A DNA stretch of 12,813 nucleotides from Candidatus Latescibacterota bacterium. Lineage in GTDB: Bacteria; Latescibacterota; UBA2968; GCA-2709665. A model generated the notes under the pieces. It worked only from the letters and a program-made list of their open reading frames with translations, searched no databases and had not been told where the DNA came from. Positions 1,702 through 12,672 of the stretch are shown piece after piece. Location of the stretch: NCBI GenBank assembly GCA_030746455.1, contig JASLMQ010000740.1, positions 1 to 12,813 on the forward strand. The letters are read 5' to 3'. Numbering within the stretch: the first letter of the stretch is position 1; the number at the start of each line of letters is the position of its first letter. The position numbers and the translations under genes are program-made.

Positions 1702-2745
1702 CTACTGCAGACTCGTCTGCTCAACGGCATTCCGCATCGCGACTATTTGCCCGATCGCGAAGGCCCAGCCCAACCGGGTGTCCGGCGTGTCGCCGATGAT
1801 CCCGGGGGTGTGGTCCGGGTCGAGCAGACCGGAGTACCCGACCTCGTGGAAGGCCTGCATACAGCCGAACATGTCGCAGTCACCCTCGTCGTGGAAGGTC
1901 TCGACGTATTTGTCGCGAGGGACCTCGACGCGGACATTGCGGAAATGGACGATGGCGATCCGGTCGCGGCCGCCGAATCGACGAATGGCCTGAACGGCGT
2001 CTTCGCCGAGCTCGGTGGTCACCCCGGTGTCGAAGAAGAGGGAGTTGGCAGGGCTGTCCACGGTGTCAAGCAGGCGCTCGAGGCCGTCGAGGTCGGACAA
2101 CGGCTGGGCCACGCCGCGGTACTCGGGGATGGGAGGGTCATTCGGGTGCGCGGCCAGGCGGACACCGGCCTCCTCGGCGGCCGGAACGATCTCGCGGAGG
2201 AAGACGGTGAGGCGCTCCCACATGTCGTCGAGGCTGTGACAACCGACCGAATCGAGCGGCGGTAGCTCGCGGATCCGTTCGTGGTCGAAGTCGCGCAGAT
2301 CCGAACCCCCGCGGCCGGCGCCGGGAAGCGCGCCGTAGCCCTCCGATGCGCGCAGCGCGGTGAAGCTGTAGGTCATCACCGAAACGCCCAGGCGACCGGC
2401 CACGGCGATGCAGTCCCTGAGCCTCGCGAAATCCTCATCCCGTCCCGGCTGGCCGTACACGATGTTGCCGGACAGAGGGAGCCGCATCTCGGACGGCGTC
2501 AGCCCGAAGGACTCGATGCGTTCGTGGATCCGAAGGAGCTCGGATTCGTCCCACGGCGCGCTCAGCGGGCCCATCGGGCCCGTCTGGGTTGGCGGCACGA
2601 GAGGGCGCGAGCCGACCCGGGTATTGTAACGCGTCGGCAGGCCCACGTGCTCCACGCCGATCTGGCGGTAGAACCGAAGGACCTCCTCGGCGAGGGTGCC
2701 GAGACCCTTGCCGATCTTGATCTGGTGAGAGGGTGAGGCGGGCAT
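1702..2745 (-). CDS. Mannonate-dehydratase-like TIM-barrel enzyme (UxuA family, variant metal site)
   Basis: The product is 347 residues starting at ATG 2745; S. suis mannonate dehydratase, from memory, is about 360. The family removes water from D-mannonate to give 2-keto-3-deoxygluconate in uronate breakdown, using Mn. Family landmarks are visible in order: GRLGVSVMTYSF (about 118-128, where UxuA has VICYNF), AAHPNDPP (His200), FFDTG (237-241), HFRN (His267), FHDEGD (284-289) and DPDHTP (Asp311, His312). These align almost residue for residue with the S. suis metal ligands His199, Cys237, His266 and Asp310 as I remember them. Here the Cys position is Asp239, an altered ligand that may mean a different sugar-acid substrate. 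It is the last gene of the leftward run, 81 bp after glyA, and a heptad repeat lies just upstream. No strong ribosome site is seen. A generic sugar phosphate isomerase/epimerase is the alternative. Confidence 0.85.
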   Translation of the reverse strand: MPASPSHQIKIGKGLGTLAEEVLRFYRQIGVEHVGLPTRYNTRVGSRPLVPPTQTGPMGPLSAPWDESELLRIHERIESFGLTPSEMRLPLSGNIVYGQPGRDEDFARLRDCIAVAGRLGVSVMTYSFTALRASEGYGALPGAGRGGSDLRDFDHERIRELPPLDSVGCHSLDDMWERLTVFLREIVPAAEEAGVRLAAHPNDPPIPEYRGVAQPLSDLDGLERLLDTVDSPANSLFFDTGVTTELGEDAVQAIRRFGGRDRIAIVHFRNVRVEVPRDKYVETFHDEGDCDMFGCMQAFHEVGYSGLLDPDHTPGIIGDTPDTRLGWAFAIGQIVAMRNAVEQTSLQ

Positions 2746-4187: not shown

Positions 4188-5987
4188 CTACACCACGTCC
4201 ACCAGCGCGACGGCGGGCTCGCCGATCAGTTGGCCGTCGATGTGGACTTCGGCGGCCAGCACGTAGCGGCCCTTGCGGGCTTTCCTCGGGATAGAGACCT
4301 CAAAGCTCGTGCGTCGGCTTCGACCGGCCGGCACCCGTGCCCTTCTCGTCTCGGGCTTGCCGCGCCAGCCCTCGGGCACAACGGCCCGGACCAGAGCCGA
4401 TGCCACCTGCTTGCCCAGATTCCGGAACTGGAACCGCAGAGATATGCGTGAGCCGGGCCTGGTGCTGCTGCGGAACGGGCACCAGGCCGTGGCACGATGG
4501 TCATAGTCCGCCGTCCACGGATCGGACGCGCAGAGGTCCTGGACCGACCTTTCCGCCTGCGAGGACCAGCGCAGGATCCGGCGGTAGTGGCCCGGGTGAT
4601 AGCGATAGATGCAGCTGTGCCCGTTGCAGATAAGCTCGGGCCCGAGATCCAGAACGTCCTGGACCGTGGGCGCGAAGCCCTCGGAGAACCGGCTTCCGTT
4701 GTAGGCGCAGAACCCTCCCGTGCCGTTCCAGCGCGAGGGCGGCTGGAAGCAGTCGCCCGAGAACAGGACATGCACGCCCGAGACCTCGGTGTCGATCGCG
4801 CAGTGCCACCAGGTCTGACCGGGGAACGGCCGGCTCCGCATGCGATATCGATTCCAGCGAAACGTCCCTTCGGCGGGGAGTAGCCGATCGGGCTCGACCG
4901 ACGTGGCAGGCAGGAAGGGCACGTCCAACCTGTCGCGATCGTGGATGGGCTCCGCAACCCGCGGATGCAGCCACACCATCGTGCCGTACCGATCCCGGAG
5001 CCAGTTCAGCCCGTCGCTGTGGTCGCAATGGTAGTGCGAGGCGGTGGCCGCCGTGATCGACTCGACGCCGACCTCCGCCATCAGATGCGGGATCTCCTTC
5101 ACGCTGGGTAGCGTGGGGTCGATCACGAAGCCCTGGCGCCGATCACCGACGAGCAGATAGGTGTTGTTCGCGAAGTGGTAGAGGTCGGGCAGAACGCGCG
5201 ATGCGCCGCACTCGAGTAGCTCGGTGGTCAACCAGCGGTCGCGCTCGCCGGCGCAGACCGACCCCTTGGACCGGATGAAGGCCATCAGGCGCTTGCGGGC
5301 CTCCCGCACGCAGGCGCCCGGGCGCTCGGAGACCATCGGCCCGTGCGACGGACACAGGAGATCGATCCGGCAATAGCTCAGGCGCTCCAGGCCGTACCAG
5401 GCCTCACGCGCGCCTCCCGGCGTCCAGTGGTCCCACTCCAGATGATAGGGCTGGTGGACCGTGCCTCCCGCGTGAACGGCATCGCCGCAGAAGGCGATTG
5501 CACGTCTCTCCCAGTTCACCACGTAGGTGAGCGCCCCGGGGGTGTGTCCGGGCGTGGGCACCGGGCAGATCCGCGTCCCCCCCCACTGGACCTCGTTGGA
5601 GTCGCCTACATCGCTCTGCACGAACGGTAGCGGCTCCCGCGGAGCGGCGTAGTTCGCCGGGCATCCGGAGTTCTGGTAGGTCAGCCAGAACCGCTTGAGG
5701 GCGTTGGGCCGGTAGAAGCGCGCGTCTTCGGCCGATGCGTGGACCTCGAAGGGCCAGTCGGATCGACGCGCCAGCCCGTAGCTCTGGTCGCGATGTGCGT
5801 GGGTGAGGAACACGTGGCGCAGCGATTTCACGCCAATATCCGGCAGGTGGGCCATCCAGCCGCCCGAGCCGAAGTCGAATGCGATTGCCTCGTCGCCTGA
5901 CTTGAGGAGGTAGACGTTGCAGGAGTCGTGGAAGCAGAAGAGGTCGGGCAATGGTGAATGCCAGGGAATCGCGAGACCACGAGACAT
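4188..5987 (-). CDS. Tandem metallo-beta-lactamase-fold hydrolase with C-terminal beta-sandwich
   Basis: The product is 599 residues. ATG 5987 is chosen because GGGAGG precedes it closely; the farther ATG at 6029 lies in a repeat element. Two MBL-fold domains are fused. Domain 1 (about 5-240) has HAHRDQ (His63, His65, Asp67, Gln68), PGHTPG (His148), FCGD (Asp169) and PSHG (His215). Domain 2 (about 265-475) has HYHCDH (His318, His320, Asp322, His323), PGQT (Gln391), FSGD (Asp412) and CNGH (His457). Each domain therefore lacks one canonical metal ligand, a different one in each. Residues about 510-599 look like a beta-sandwich similar to NEW3-type domains. No signal peptide is seen. The family hydrolyses esters, thioesters, lactones or phosphoesters; the substrate here is unknown, and a sugar lactone would fit the setting. 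It is the first gene of the run leading to glyA. Confidence 0.9.
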   Translation of the reverse strand: MSRGLAIPWHSPLPDLFCFHDSCNVYLLKSGDEAIAFDFGSGGWMAHLPDIGVKSLRHVFLTHAHRDQSYGLARRSDWPFEVHASAEDARFYRPNALKRFWLTYQNSGCPANYAAPREPLPFVQSDVGDSNEVQWGGTRICPVPTPGHTPGALTYVVNWERRAIAFCGDAVHAGGTVHQPYHLEWDHWTPGGAREAWYGLERLSYCRIDLLCPSHGPMVSERPGACVREARKRLMAFIRSKGSVCAGERDRWLTTELLECGASRVLPDLYHFANNTYLLVGDRRQGFVIDPTLPSVKEIPHLMAEVGVESITAATASHYHCDHSDGLNWLRDRYGTMVWLHPRVAEPIHDRDRLDVPFLPATSVEPDRLLPAEGTFRWNRYRMRSRPFPGQTWWHCAIDTEVSGVHVLFSGDCFQPPSRWNGTGGFCAYNGSRFSEGFAPTVQDVLDLGPELICNGHSCIYRYHPGHYRRILRWSSQAERSVQDLCASDPWTADYDHRATAWCPFRSSTRPGSRISLRFQFRNLGKQVASALVRAVVPEGWRGKPETRRARVPAGRSRRTSFEVSIPRKARKGRYVLAAEVHIDGQLIGEPAVALVDVV

Positions 5988-5990
5988 AGT

Positions 5991-5997
5991 GCCTCCC
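5991..5997 (-). promoter_or_regulatory. Ribosome binding site deciding the start of the tandem metallo-beta-lactamase gene
   Basis: On the minus strand GGGAGGC ends three bases before ATG 5987, giving GGGAGG a short spacing. The upstream in-frame ATG at 6029 has no such site and lies in the GTCAGCT repeat, so 5987 is preferred. Confidence 0.65.
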
Positions 5998-6017
5998 AAG
6001 GTCAGACGGGCTGAGTA

Positions 6018-6138
6018 GCCTTCAGCCATCAGCTGTCAGCTGAACCTGTTCATTGGATCTGCAGAAAGCAGTGGCCATAGAGACGGCAGATTCTGGTTCT
6101 GTTTTTAGCTGAAGGCTGACTGCTGATAGCTGAACGCC
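6018..6138. repeat. Heptad fold-back element, copy 1
   Basis: The left arm has 7-base units TCAGCCA, TCAGCTG and TCAGCTG (6022-6042). The right arm has AGCTGAA, GGCTGAC, TGCTGAT and AGCTGAA (6107-6134). The arms are complementary, so the whole element folds back. It matches the second copy at 11263-11391, in the same orientation. GAACC (6042) to GCTGAAGGCTGA (6108) spans 66 bases in both copies. Confidence 0.75.
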
Positions 6139-9262: not shown

Positions 9263-9291
9263 TTGCTCGCGACACATGCTCCGTGTATAAT
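9263..9291 (+). promoter_or_regulatory. Sigma-70-type promoter for the kinase-nucleotidyltransferase pair
   Basis: A perfect -10 box TATAAT (9286-9291) sits 17 bases after TTGCTC (9263-9268, 3 of 6 to the -35 consensus). Transcription would begin near 9297-9299, one to four bases before ATG 9301, so the message may be leaderless. The complementary strand of the same box reads TATTAT and might serve the divergent oxidoreductase gene, but its -35 region is poor. Confidence 0.6.
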
Positions 9292-9300
9292 AGGTCCGCT

Positions 9301-10494
9301 ATGAATGACGACGCGATCCTCGACCGCCTGAGATCGGAAATGCAACGGCGCTACGACGTGGTACCCGACGCCGTCCGCATCGTGGAGTCCCCCTACAGGA
9401 TCTGCCCGCTGGGCGCCCACATCGACCACCAGCTCGGGCCGGTGACGGCCATGGCGATCGATCGGGCGGTGCACCTGGCCTTCGCCCCGTCGGGTTCGCG
9501 CGAGATCCGTCTGAGCAGTCTCTCGTTCGACGGTGAGATCAACTTCGGTCTTGACGGGATCCCACCCAGACGTGAGGACGATTGGGGCAATTACGTCCGC
9601 GGCGCCGCACTTGCGCTCGAGGATCACGTTGGGCTCGAGCAGGGCATTCTGGGCGTCACGGCCGGCCGGCTCGGGGCGGGAGGACTCAGCTCTTCGGCCG
9701 CGATCGGCGTGGCCTACCTTCTGGCGCTTGAAGACGTGAATGGACTGGCGCTGTCCGAAACGGAGAACATCCGGCTCGACCAGGCCATCGAGAACGGCTC
9801 CCTCGGTCTGCGCAACGGCATTCTGGACCAGGCCGCCATTCTGCTGTCGCGCGAAGACCACCTGACGCTCATCGACTGCCGCGATGCCAACCACCGGCTG
9901 ATTCCCCGAGCGGAATCCATGCCGCCGTTCGACATCCTGATCGCGTTCTCCGGGCTGGAACAGGCCCTGGTGACAACGGGCTACAACCAGCGCGTCGACG
10001 AGTGCGCCGAGGCGGCTAAGACGCTTCTCGATCTCGCGGGACGACCGGGGGAGCCGCACCTGCTCGGGAACGTGACACCCGACGAATACGGCGCGTACCG
10101 GTCGCGCCTCACCGGTGACCCGGCTCGCCGTGCCGCGCACTTCTTCGGCGAAACGGAGCGGGTCCGGGCCGGGGTGGAGGCCTGGGGCCGTGGCGACCTG
10201 GTGGGCTTTGGCCGGCTGATGACCGAATCGGGCCGAAGCTCGATCGACAACTACGAGTGCGGCAGCCCGCCGCTCATCGATCTCTACGAGATCCTGGTGG
10301 AGACCGAAGGCGTGTACGGCGCGCGGTTCAGCGGCGCGGGATTCCGGGGGTGCTGTGTGGCAGTCGTGGACGCCGGGGCGGGAGACGAGGCCGCGCAGCA
10401 CGTGCGGGACGTCTACGGCGATCGCTATCCCGACCTGGCCGCCGACGCACCGGTGTTCCTCTGCGGCTCATGCGACGGAGCGCGAATCCTGTGA
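9301..10494 (+). CDS. GHMP kinase closely resembling plant galacturonokinase (GalA-1-kinase)
   Basis: The product is 397 residues. GHMP kinases of this branch phosphorylate a sugar at C1 with ATP. The substrate motif reads SPYRICPLGAHIDHQ (30-44), not the galactokinase GEHTDY form, so the usual Glu is Ala39. I remember this block, plus SSSAA-GVAYLLALE, ENG-LGLRNGILDQ, SSI-NYECG and VYGARFSGAGFRGCC, as characteristic of Arabidopsis galacturonic acid kinase. The ATP-loop motif is GGLSSSAA (127-134), the likely catalytic base is Asp176 in RNGILDQ, and GHMP motif 3 is GARFSGAGFRGCC (340-352). The likely reaction is D-galacturonate plus ATP to alpha-D-galacturonate-1-phosphate, in the cytoplasm. 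ATG 9301 is preferred because a -10 box lies immediately upstream; only AGG (9292-9294) hints at a ribosome site. It overlaps the next gene by four bases. Galactose or glucuronate as substrate cannot be excluded. Confidence 0.9.
   Translation: MNDDAILDRLRSEMQRRYDVVPDAVRIVESPYRICPLGAHIDHQLGPVTAMAIDRAVHLAFAPSGSREIRLSSLSFDGEINFGLDGIPPRREDDWGNYVRGAALALEDHVGLEQGILGVTAGRLGAGGLSSSAAIGVAYLLALEDVNGLALSETENIRLDQAIENGSLGLRNGILDQAAILLSREDHLTLIDCRDANHRLIPRAESMPPFDILIAFSGLEQALVTTGYNQRVDECAEAAKTLLDLAGRPGEPHLLGNVTPDEYGAYRSRLTGDPARRAAHFFGETERVRAGVEAWGRGDLVGFGRLMTESGRSSIDNYECGSPPLIDLYEILVETEGVYGARFSGAGFRGCCVAVVDAGAGDEAAQHVRDVYGDRYPDLAADAPVFLCGSCDGARIL
10476..10480 (+). promoter_or_regulatory. Ribosome binding site of the nucleotidyltransferase, inside the kinase gene
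   Basis: CGGAG ends ten bases before GTG 10491. The alternative ATG at 10470 has no ribosome site and would add seven residues before the conserved KALILAAG start. Confidence 0.5.
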
Positions 10495-11258
10495 AGGCCC
10501 TCATCCTCGCTGCCGGCTATGCCACGCGGCTCTACCCGCTCACACTCGATTTCCCCAAGCCCCTGCTCGAGGTGGGTGGCAAGACCCTCCTGGACCACCT
10601 GGTGGATCAGATCCGCGAGATACCGGGCATCGAGCACGCGGTACTGGTGTCGAACCATCGCTTCGTCGGTCACTTCGACCTATGGGCGGCTGAGCGGACC
10701 GCGCAGGCGCGCCGGGGGGGACAGGCCCACAGGGGACTCCGCTTCGAGGTGCTGGACGACGGCACCACCTCGAATGACGATCGGCTGGGTGCGGTGGGCG
10801 ACATCCAGTATGCCTTGACCCATCGCGACGTCGACGATGATCTTCTGGTGTGCGCCGCGGACAACATCCTCCAGTTTCCGCTGAAGCGGTTCGTACAGAC
10901 CTTTCGCGGCAACCCGGCATCCCACATCTGCGTTCGGGCGATCGAGGATGTGGAGGACCGGAAGCGTCGGGGGATCGTCCTCCTGGATGCGGACAACCGC
11001 GTGCTCGAGTTCGAGGAGAAGCCGGAGGCCCCCAAGTCGAAGTGGGCCGTGCCTCCGCTCTACATCTATCCCAAGTCCGTTCTCCCGCGCATCGCCGAGT
11101 ACTTGCAACAAGGCGGTACCTCAGACGCGCCCGGACATCTCTTGGAATGGCTCTGCCAGGTGGAGCCGGTCTATGCATACGAGATAGAGGGTTCTGTGCT
11201 GGATATTGGCAATCATGAATCGTTGGCTGAGGCGAGAAGAATGCTTGTGAATCAGTGA
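10491..11258 (+). CDS. Sugar-1-phosphate nucleotidyltransferase
   Basis: The product is 255 residues from GTG 10491, whose GTGA overlaps the kinase stop. The family joins a sugar-1-phosphate to an NTP, releasing pyrophosphate. The canonical N-terminus KALILAAGYATRLYPLT (2-18) contains the nucleotide-binding GxxTR loop. FPKPLLEVGGKTLLDHLV (21-38) includes the PKPL lysine, Asp124 in CAADN is the likely metal ligand, EEKP is at 175-178, and LDIGNHESL (237-245) is the DxG metal/product motif. The length fits the compact RmlA/MurU/GMP-type enzymes without a left-handed beta-helix. Coupled to a galacturonokinase-like gene, the simplest role is to make UDP-galacturonate from GalA-1-phosphate, as the kinase-pyrophosphorylase pair does in plants. 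Nucleotide and sugar choice cannot be read from sequence; a dTDP- or GDP-sugar product is possible. Confidence 0.93.
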   Translation: MKALILAAGYATRLYPLTLDFPKPLLEVGGKTLLDHLVDQIREIPGIEHAVLVSNHRFVGHFDLWAAERTAQARRGGQAHRGLRFEVLDDGTTSNDDRLGAVGDIQYALTHRDVDDDLLVCAADNILQFPLKRFVQTFRGNPASHICVRAIEDVEDRKRRGIVLLDADNRVLEFEEKPEAPKSKWAVPPLYIYPKSVLPRIAEYLQQGGTSDAPGHLLEWLCQVEPVYAYEIEGSVLDIGNHESLAEARRMLVNQ

Positions 11259-11469: not shown

Positions 11470-12672
11470 ATGGCAAAGGTCGACATCGTAAGACACCTGC
11501 CCGGCGCCGTGTTCTGCGGCACCTGTGAGGTGATCATCACCGACGACGAGAGCAACATCGTACGTCTCGTCGAGCCCAGCGGCAATGTGGGCACCCAGTA
11601 CCCGAAGGAGCTGGGATCCCAGTGGTTCGGAACCATCGAGAACCTGAACGCCGGACTCGCGCGGGGCGGGGTCACGTGGGGCGACGTGTACAAGACGGAC
11701 GTCCTCTGGACCACGCCGTCGTCGGACCGGGAGGCGTGCGACGCCTACAAGGACAGCTACAACGCGGTCTACGGCTCGATGGTCAAGGCGGTGACCGGCT
11801 GCGACCTCAACTCGAACCGGATGGCCCGTTTCACCCACCCCGAGGGATTCCCCGACCCGGAGGCCCTGTTCGAGGTGCAGATCAAGGCCATCAGGGGGGA
11901 AGGCGTGGTCGTCGGGGGAGGCAAGATCGACTTCGGCTCGTGGGTCGACCATCAGCCCAGCGGCGCATCGGTGCTCCACACGGACGCCCAGGGGAATTCG
12001 GTGGCGACGCTCGGGCCCGATCTCGCGAAGGAGATGGAGTTCGTGCTGGTGGAGCAGTACGAGAAGAAGCTGGCCGAGCAAGGCGTGGACTTCAAGACCC
12101 AGACGGCCTGGATGGAGATCCTGGTGGCCGTGGACGACGACCCCGGGCAGACATGGAGCCGGGTGGAGACCGTCCGCAAGGTGATGGCCGACTACTTCGG
12201 CGACCACCGGCCCGCCGGACTCATCTATCCGGTCTCACGGATCCCCAATCTCGACGGTATCGTGGAGCCCGAGCCGAGGTGTGTGGTTGGCGAAGGGGTC
12301 GAGATCGACCGGGCGGGGGAGATCGTCGACGGGTTCAGCACGTGGACGGCGATCCGCCGCTCCGGCGTGACCGAGGTGATGGTGAGCGGAGTGGGGGGAG
12401 ACGATGCGGCGGCCATCCTGGACACAATCGACGCGCGGGTCCGGGCGGCGGGCGGCACAGGCCTGAAGGCCGATGGGGTGTTCAACAACGCCTACGTGGT
12501 GGCGGGAGAAGATGGCCCGGCCAACCGCGACCGCTTTACCGAGTTCAACGGCCCCTTTTCGGGTTACTACGAGGGCACCGTTCCGGCGGGACGCACCGCC
12601 CAGTTCGTGCCCGGGTTCATGACCGAAGGGACGAAGTTCGGGATCTGCAATCGGTCGATCTTCGCGGGCTAA
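11470..12672 (+). CDS. Triple RidA (YjgF/YER057c/UK114)-domain protein
   Basis: The product is 400 residues from ATG 11470, preceded by a strong GAGGAGGT site (11458-11465). RidA proteins are normally about 130 residues, form trimers, and hydrolyse reactive imines and enamines made by PLP enzymes. Here three RidA-like units run in series. Unit 1 (about 15-142) has QWFGTIENLNAGLARGGVTW, DVYKTDVLW, DAYKDSYNAVYG, SNRMAR and PEALFEVQIKAI. Unit 2 (about 155-273) has EFVLVEQYEKKLAEQGVDF, MEILVAVDD, HRPAG and GIVEPEPR. Unit 3 (about 285-398) has VSGVGGDDAAAILDTIDARV, GVFNNAYVV and AGRTAQF. An arginine near the catalytic RidA Arg position can be pointed to in each unit: Arg117/120, Arg247 and Arg375. 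No signal peptide is seen. It may be a single-chain pseudo-trimer. It is probably its own transcription unit after the repeat element. Substrate and partner are unknown. Confidence 0.85.
   Translation: MAKVDIVRHLPGAVFCGTCEVIITDDESNIVRLVEPSGNVGTQYPKELGSQWFGTIENLNAGLARGGVTWGDVYKTDVLWTTPSSDREACDAYKDSYNAVYGSMVKAVTGCDLNSNRMARFTHPEGFPDPEALFEVQIKAIRGEGVVVGGGKIDFGSWVDHQPSGASVLHTDAQGNSVATLGPDLAKEMEFVLVEQYEKKLAEQGVDFKTQTAWMEILVAVDDDPGQTWSRVETVRKVMADYFGDHRPAGLIYPVSRIPNLDGIVEPEPRCVVGEGVEIDRAGEIVDGFSTWTAIRRSGVTEVMVSGVGGDDAAAILDTIDARVRAAGGTGLKADGVFNNAYVVAGEDGPANRDRFTEFNGPFSGYYEGTVPAGRTAQFVPGFMTEGTKFGICNRSIFAG

Follow-up and report, generated by a model that had tools for sequence, protein, structure and literature searches.

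A two-gene unit on a contig of a Candidatus Latescibacterota bacterium (JASLMQ010000740.1, assembly GCA_030746455.1) is likely to be a bacterial salvage module that takes free galacturonate (GalA) through GalA-1-phosphate to UDP-GalA. We analysed a 12,813-nucleotide stretch of this contig (here called the window), in which a gene for a galacturonokinase (GalAK)-type GHMP kinase overlaps one for a sugar-1-phosphate nucleotidyltransferase (NTase). The case for the module is built on the gene structure, the sequence and tree position of the kinase, the fold of the NTase as given by a structure model, the coupling of the two genes, and the neighbours of related loci. The kinase would phosphorylate free D-galacturonate at C1 with ATP, yielding GalA-1-phosphate. 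The coupled NTase would then turn GalA-1-phosphate and a nucleotide, most likely UTP (the one we favour), into UDP-GalA and pyrophosphate, and the UDP-GalA would be used for glycan synthesis. To judge from the sequences, the module is real and probably functional, a variant in bacteria of the salvage route of plants.

Gene structure and immediate surroundings

The features of the window that matter here are as follows.

9301..10494, + strand: GalAK-type GHMP kinase (ATG start, TGA stop at 10494, 397 amino acids)
9391..9432, + strand: sugar-binding signature PYRICPLGAHIDHQ (kinase residues 31-44, including Ala39)
10491..10494, + strand: GTGA, the 4 bases shared by the two genes (kinase stop, NTase start)
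10491..11258, + strand: sugar-1-phosphate nucleotidyltransferase, termed type A (GTG start, TGA stop, 255 amino acids)
11470..12672, + strand: 400-amino-acid protein downstream of the pair (context)
1702..2745, - strand: UxuA-like (mannonate dehydratase family) TIM-barrel protein (Pfam UxuA, E = 9.4e-44; context)

The first-pass annotation placed the GTG start of the NTase over the kinase stop, and the GTGA at 10491 to 10494 bears this out. It also called the genes fused, which was the wrong word: the two open reading frames encode separate proteins and overlap in different frames. The overlap probably leads to translational coupling. It is beyond chance, because a 4-base overlap (a spacing of -4, counted to the point where the tblastn alignment begins) recurs in 25 of the 34 pairs of the same type among 80 related loci.

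Nine clustered loci of the Latescibacteria type, the window among them, retain the 400-amino-acid gene downstream of the pair. Pfam and NCBIfam scans gave no match for its product, which by eye looks RidA-like (putative). The UxuA-like gene lies 6.5 kb from the kinase, and no pectin-degrading enzyme was found among the nine window proteins scanned with Pfam. As neighbours shared with other loci, the UxuA-like and 400-amino-acid genes would point to a Latescibacterota-like host. A TATAAT sequence at 9286 to 9291, 9 bases 5' of the kinase ATG, would mean a near-leaderless message; a promoter scan reported no site. Elsewhere in the window (4188 to 6029, - strand), one protein combines two metallo-beta-lactamase-fold stretches with a C-terminal NEW3 domain.

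The kinase groups with plant galacturonokinases

Pfam recognises GHMP_kinases_N, GHMP_kinases_C and GalKase_gal_bdg domains in the kinase. Over nearly the whole protein it is 47 to 51% identical to nine plant GalAK sequences, and its identity to 14 galactokinase (GalK) sequences is 28 to 35%. In the PDB, its closest matches by sequence are galactokinases; in NCBIfam, the top five hits are galactokinase models as well, each scoring under its cut-off (TIGR00131, 180.1 bits versus 226.65; PRK05322, 184.4 versus 385; and three further models). We considered a GalK assignment and rejected it: the kinase scores under the NCBIfam cut-offs, falls outside the GalK clade and has Ala in place of the Glu of the G-E-H-T-D-Y motif. 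As the first-pass annotation had it, residues 31 to 44 carry the galacturonokinase form of this motif, with Ala39 where galactokinases have Glu (Glu34 in E. coli GalK). In all 12 GalAK-bearing genomes scanned, a separate GalK match over the cut-off was present.

A protein-collection search with the window kinase returned 3,662 homologues (the 7,997 best candidates were scored and the best 120 listed). The motif GAH[IV]DHQ is present in every one of the best 120 of these 3,662 (110 + 10) and in all 120 proteins listed from a search with Arabidopsis GalAK (112 + 8). The latter query was an approximate sequence; it retrieved plant proteins, many of them named galacturonokinase, with a best identity of 97%. 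Bacterial homologues had been expected to be annotated simply as galactokinase, which turned out to be mistaken: among the best 120 of the 3,662 homologues, JGI names 31 galacturonokinase and 3 galactokinase, and most are unnamed. The GalAK family is thus partly annotated already.

For the diagnostic residues we aligned 99 sequences (77 bacterial including the window, 9 plant and 13 GalK), leaving out of the count four GalAK sequences at contig ends (L027, L063, L064 and L066) and one partial GalK (L092). Yang and colleagues reportedly studied Arabidopsis GalAK (At3g10700) in 2009 with mutants at positions A41, Y250 and A368, and the specificity is said to be able to shift in Y250F. We take Ala39, Tyr228 and Ala346 of the window kinase to be these tested positions. 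At position 41, Ala occupies all 77 bacterial and all 9 plant sequences, and Glu 12 of the 13 GalK sequences. Position 250 is Tyr in every sequence, GalK included (13/13), and at position 368 Ala is found in 70 of the 77 bacterial sequences (the other 7 have Gly) and in 9 of the 13 GalK sequences. Only position 41 therefore separates GalAK from GalK, the other two being weakly diagnostic because GalK shares them. His43, Gln44 and Arg349 belong to a set of 27 GalAK-specific alignment columns (at least 90% in GalAK and at most 15% in GalK).

The tree comprised 72 sequences: the window kinase, 48 of 80 GalAK-type loci (hand-chosen for breadth), 9 of 120 plant sequences (all from flowering plants), 13 GalK-family sequences from the 12 genomes scanned for galactokinase, and E. 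coli GalK. The 58 GalAK-type sequences split from the 14 GalK sequences at 100/100. The window kinase, 24 other bacterial sequences and all 9 plant sequences form a 34-member clade (100/98), so that the kinase lies outside GalK and together with plant GalAK, as first proposed. The plant sequences nest among bacterial ones, and the AU test leaves bacterial monophyly unrejected (P = 0.279). The tree program warned of long branches in two GalK sequences (L091 and L093) and of odd letter composition in seven sequences. Judged by sequence and tree, the window kinase is a galacturonokinase.

The pair is conserved across bacterial phyla

We scanned genome contigs for related loci and kept the best 80 of 141; because these are the closest, the pairing rate may fall further out. 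NTases were typed by their identity to the window NTase (type A, >32%). We counted as directly downstream the next same-strand NTase match, which lay at most 196 bases (type A) or 327 bases (type B) away. Among these best 80 of 141 loci, an NTase directly follows the kinase at 46 of the 74 that could be assessed. The 80 divide into 34 with type A, 11 with type B, 1 with probable type B and 28 with none, plus 5 that end too soon and 1 (L072, a 39-residue fragment) that was set apart. One locus counted as type A (L057) is visible over 40 residues only, before the contig ends.

Type-A pairs occur at 9 of 10 loci in Latescibacterota, 2 of 3 in Gemmatimonadota, 8 of 10 in Verrucomicrobiota, both in Calditrichota, 4 of 6 in Armatimonadota (plus one type B) and the single one in Acidobacteriota, as well as at one Chloroflexota locus and at 7 of 8 loci with no phylum name. 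Type B, which resembles GlmU/RmlA-type enzymes, is found in Chloroflexota in 10 of 11 cases. No NTase lies downstream at any of the 13 assessable Planctomycetota loci, at either of the 2 in Sumerlaeota or at 7 of the 19 assessable in Chloroflexota; outside Planctomycetota and Chloroflexota, the count is 34 of 42 assessable loci with an NTase. L014, from the cultured Tautonia sociabilis, is one of the loci where GalAK has no NTase beside it. Overall, the best 80 of 141 loci place the kinase in nine named bacterial phyla, seven of which have the pair.

We also scanned two genome samples, each from one phylum. The Latescibacterota sample (the phylum of the genome with L002, titled Latescibacteria; 64 genomes) has GalAK at an E value of 1e-100 in 18 genomes, with the NTase adjacent in 14 of these, a less selected rate than that of the control genomes below. 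For the Verrucomicrobiota sample, 288 genomes were drawn from the phylum of the genome with L046 (titled Verrucomicrobia); 3 of them have GalAK, each with an NTase adjacent by coordinates. The expectation that the two genes are conserved neighbours thus held up. As a control, we used NTase queries of five types and found no match beside any of 13 loci of the GalK family in 12 genomes (one locus shortened by its contig), and the same genomes have an NTase beside GalAK at 11 of 12 loci. The latter rate is biased, as the genomes were picked after their NTase-bearing loci were known, and 0 of 13 is the telling figure. A functional coupling would predict what is seen here, NTases of two subfamilies directly downstream of the kinase.

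A second kinase-nucleotidyltransferase pair

A glucuronokinase-like GHMP kinase is encoded in 97 of the 288 genomes of the Verrucomicrobiota sample. We fetched 10 of these loci (L173 to L182), and in 9 of them a GalU-like NTase directly follows the kinase. At L173 (the same place as L163), a type-A NTase follows the glucuronokinase-like kinase. On sequence grounds, the glucuronokinase-like kinase and the GalU-like NTase make a possible second bacterial uronate-salvage pair.

The nucleotidyltransferase and its specificity

Pfam places the window NTase in NTP_transferase (PF00483, over the cut-off), with PF12804 also listed. The structure model has a GalU/RmlA-type fold, its best matches being UDP-glucose pyrophosphorylases and RmlA. 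Twenty-five NCBIfam families match the protein, all under their cut-offs (the best at 73.9 bits versus 400), and we accordingly rejected the named equivalogs RmlA, GalU, AglF, MurU and GlgC. A plant-type UDP-sugar pyrophosphorylase (USP) identity was also rejected, since Pfam gives PF00483 and PF12804 and no UDPGP (PF01704), which we take to be the family of plant-type USP. JGI names 11 of the best 120 NTase homologues listed glucose-1-phosphate thymidylyltransferase; it is the NTase and not the kinase that bears the misleading name in annotation.

NTases of this family occur more widely than the kinase. Type-A NTases occur in 22 of the 64 genomes of the Latescibacterota sample, 8 of which have no GalAK match at an E value of 1e-100, and in 16 of the 288 of the Verrucomicrobiota sample, 13 of which lack GalAK. 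The NTase may therefore be a general sugar-1-phosphate enzyme. In one of the 8 Latescibacterota-sample genomes, the neighbour of an intact type-A NTase is a GalAK gene split over two frames and changed in its sugar motif (L135:1695-2887); the seven others have a type-A NTase without a GalAK match. At four loci with a type-A NTase and no GalAK (L162, L166, L169 and L172), the preceding gene is, by eye, PTS enzyme I-like.

This distribution bears on the main alternative, a galacturonokinase paired with an NTase of broad or different specificity (for example, for GlcA-1-phosphate, dTTP or GTP), with something other than UDP-GalA as the main product. The NTase-bearing genomes without GalAK speak for it, as do a type-A copy lying 21 bases after a glucuronokinase-like kinase and sequence matches that span uridylyl-, thymidylyl- and guanylyltransferases, that is, enzymes using UTP, dTTP and GTP. 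An unrelated specificity is nevertheless argued against by the 4-base overlap kept in 25 of the 34 type-A pairs, and in Chloroflexota a second NTase subfamily sits in the same position, which fits selection for activating the kinase product. We regard this alternative as unlikely, and prefer a UDP-GalA-forming NTase.

Neighbour genes in other genomes

We searched the 80 loci and the window by tblastn with identified neighbours. A uronate isomerase gene (UxaC) lies 125 to 143 bases from GalAK in L063, and tagaturonate epimerase (UxaE) is encoded near GalAK in L050, L061 and L065 (Pfam UxaE, E = 9e-150 for L050). In L020, the kinase is preceded by a PL10 pectate lyase and then an MFS transporter, and a PL10 pectate lyase is also present in L029. 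UxuA-like proteins are encoded within 145 bases of GalAK in seven loci and at 1 to 3 kb in two more. Other neighbours include a TRAP solute-binding protein (L014, L027 and L030), GH95 directly upstream (L040 and L052) and an NAD-dependent epimerase-family protein directly upstream (L059 and L069). Many further neighbours scanned had no evident tie to uronates, two of these scans listing 25 of 49 families and 25 of 69. The pectin and uronate neighbours occur in a minority of loci, but these come from separate lineages. The pectate-lyase and uronate-catabolism neighbours favour galacturonate as the substrate.

Two other associations were seen. A protein that is Gfo/Idh-like by eye is encoded beside GalAK in 14 loci (L020, L007, L014, L017, L026, L034 and eight more), mostly in Planctomycetota without the NTase; its gene is on the opposite strand in three of the 14 and upstream in one, and a Pfam scan of the L014 copy gave no match. 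A group of six Chloroflexota loci (L048, L054, L062, L064, L069 and L073) has a gene for an ATP-sulfurylase/APS-kinase protein, identified by Pfam in the L054 copy, upstream of GalAK and in five of the six directly so.

The UxuA-like neighbours fall in the mannonate/glucuronate branch rather than the galacturonate branch, and together with the reported Y250F result for Arabidopsis GalAK they leave some room for a kinase acting on another sugar acid near GalA (GlcA, guluronate or an unsaturated uronate), which the module would then activate. This we consider improbable: the equivalents of Tyr250 and Ala41 are present in all 77 bacterial sequences, the clade shared with plant GalAK disfavours another sugar-acid substrate, the PL10 and UxaE neighbours point to galacturonate, and bacteria have a separate glucuronokinase-like family. 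Least credible is an Isselbacher-type route in which the pair would activate galactose, with the kinase as an unusual galactokinase, as its top PDB and NCBIfam matches might suggest, given that all five NCBIfam hits fall under cut-off, GalK splits off at 100/100, Ala replaces Glu in the sugar motif and each of the 12 genomes has its own GalK.

Discussion

The pair described here is probably a conserved bacterial form of a route known mainly from plants, with a kinase family that JGI already partly names galacturonokinase. Its kinase shares with plant GalAK (At3g10700) the PYRICPLGAHIDHQ motif, 47 to 51% identity, a clade and the residues at positions 41, 250 and 368, but differs in being bacterial and in forming an operon-like pair with its own NTase. 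Leloir GalK resembles it in its GHMP domains and overall sequence and differs in having Glu for Ala in the sugar motif, in its separate clade and in being a second gene in the same genomes. In AmgK-MurU cell-wall sugar salvage, an anomeric sugar kinase is followed by a sugar-1-phosphate uridylyltransferase. That system is similar in that kinase and NTase act in sequence, but AmgK is not known to be a GHMP kinase and its substrates are MurNAc and GlcNAc; MurU models match the window NTase weakly, under cut-off.

In plants, an anomeric kinase makes GalA-1-phosphate and a separate, broad UDP-sugar pyrophosphorylase (USP/Sloppy) takes it with UTP to UDP-GalA (PMC6329318). The second step would be alike here, but the window NTase is short, belongs to PF00483 and has, by the model, a GalU/RmlA-type fold. 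The zebrafish protein DrGKUP likewise joins a uronate anomeric kinase to a bacterial-type NTase, but the substrate is glucuronate, the fusion is a true one and the activity of the putative pyrophosphorylase was reported to be extremely low (PMC3938481). One group found the known GalA kinase too unstable and weak for UDP-GalA synthesis (PMC7984243). Among the matches listed in the literature searched, as far as their accessible text goes, we found no description of a bacterial GalAK-NTase pair. A genome study of Latescibacteria describes the catabolism of galacturonate and the breakdown of pectin, with PL10 included in the latter (PMC4454575).

There is about an even chance that these pairs represent a general class of bacterial uronate-salvage operons, in which a C1 uronate kinase has been wired repeatedly to NTases (GalAK with type A, GalAK with type B in Chloroflexota, and the glucuronokinase-like kinase with a GalU-like NTase in Verrucomicrobiota), with plant GalAK maybe descended from that bacterial radiation. 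If the proposed salvage module is real, bacteria that meet pectin could convert free galacturonate directly to an activated sugar for reuse, an alternative to only burning galacturonate or epimerising UDP-GlcA to UDP-GalA. The pair would then be a possible two-enzyme source of UDP-GalA, and it bears on the origin of plant GalAK.
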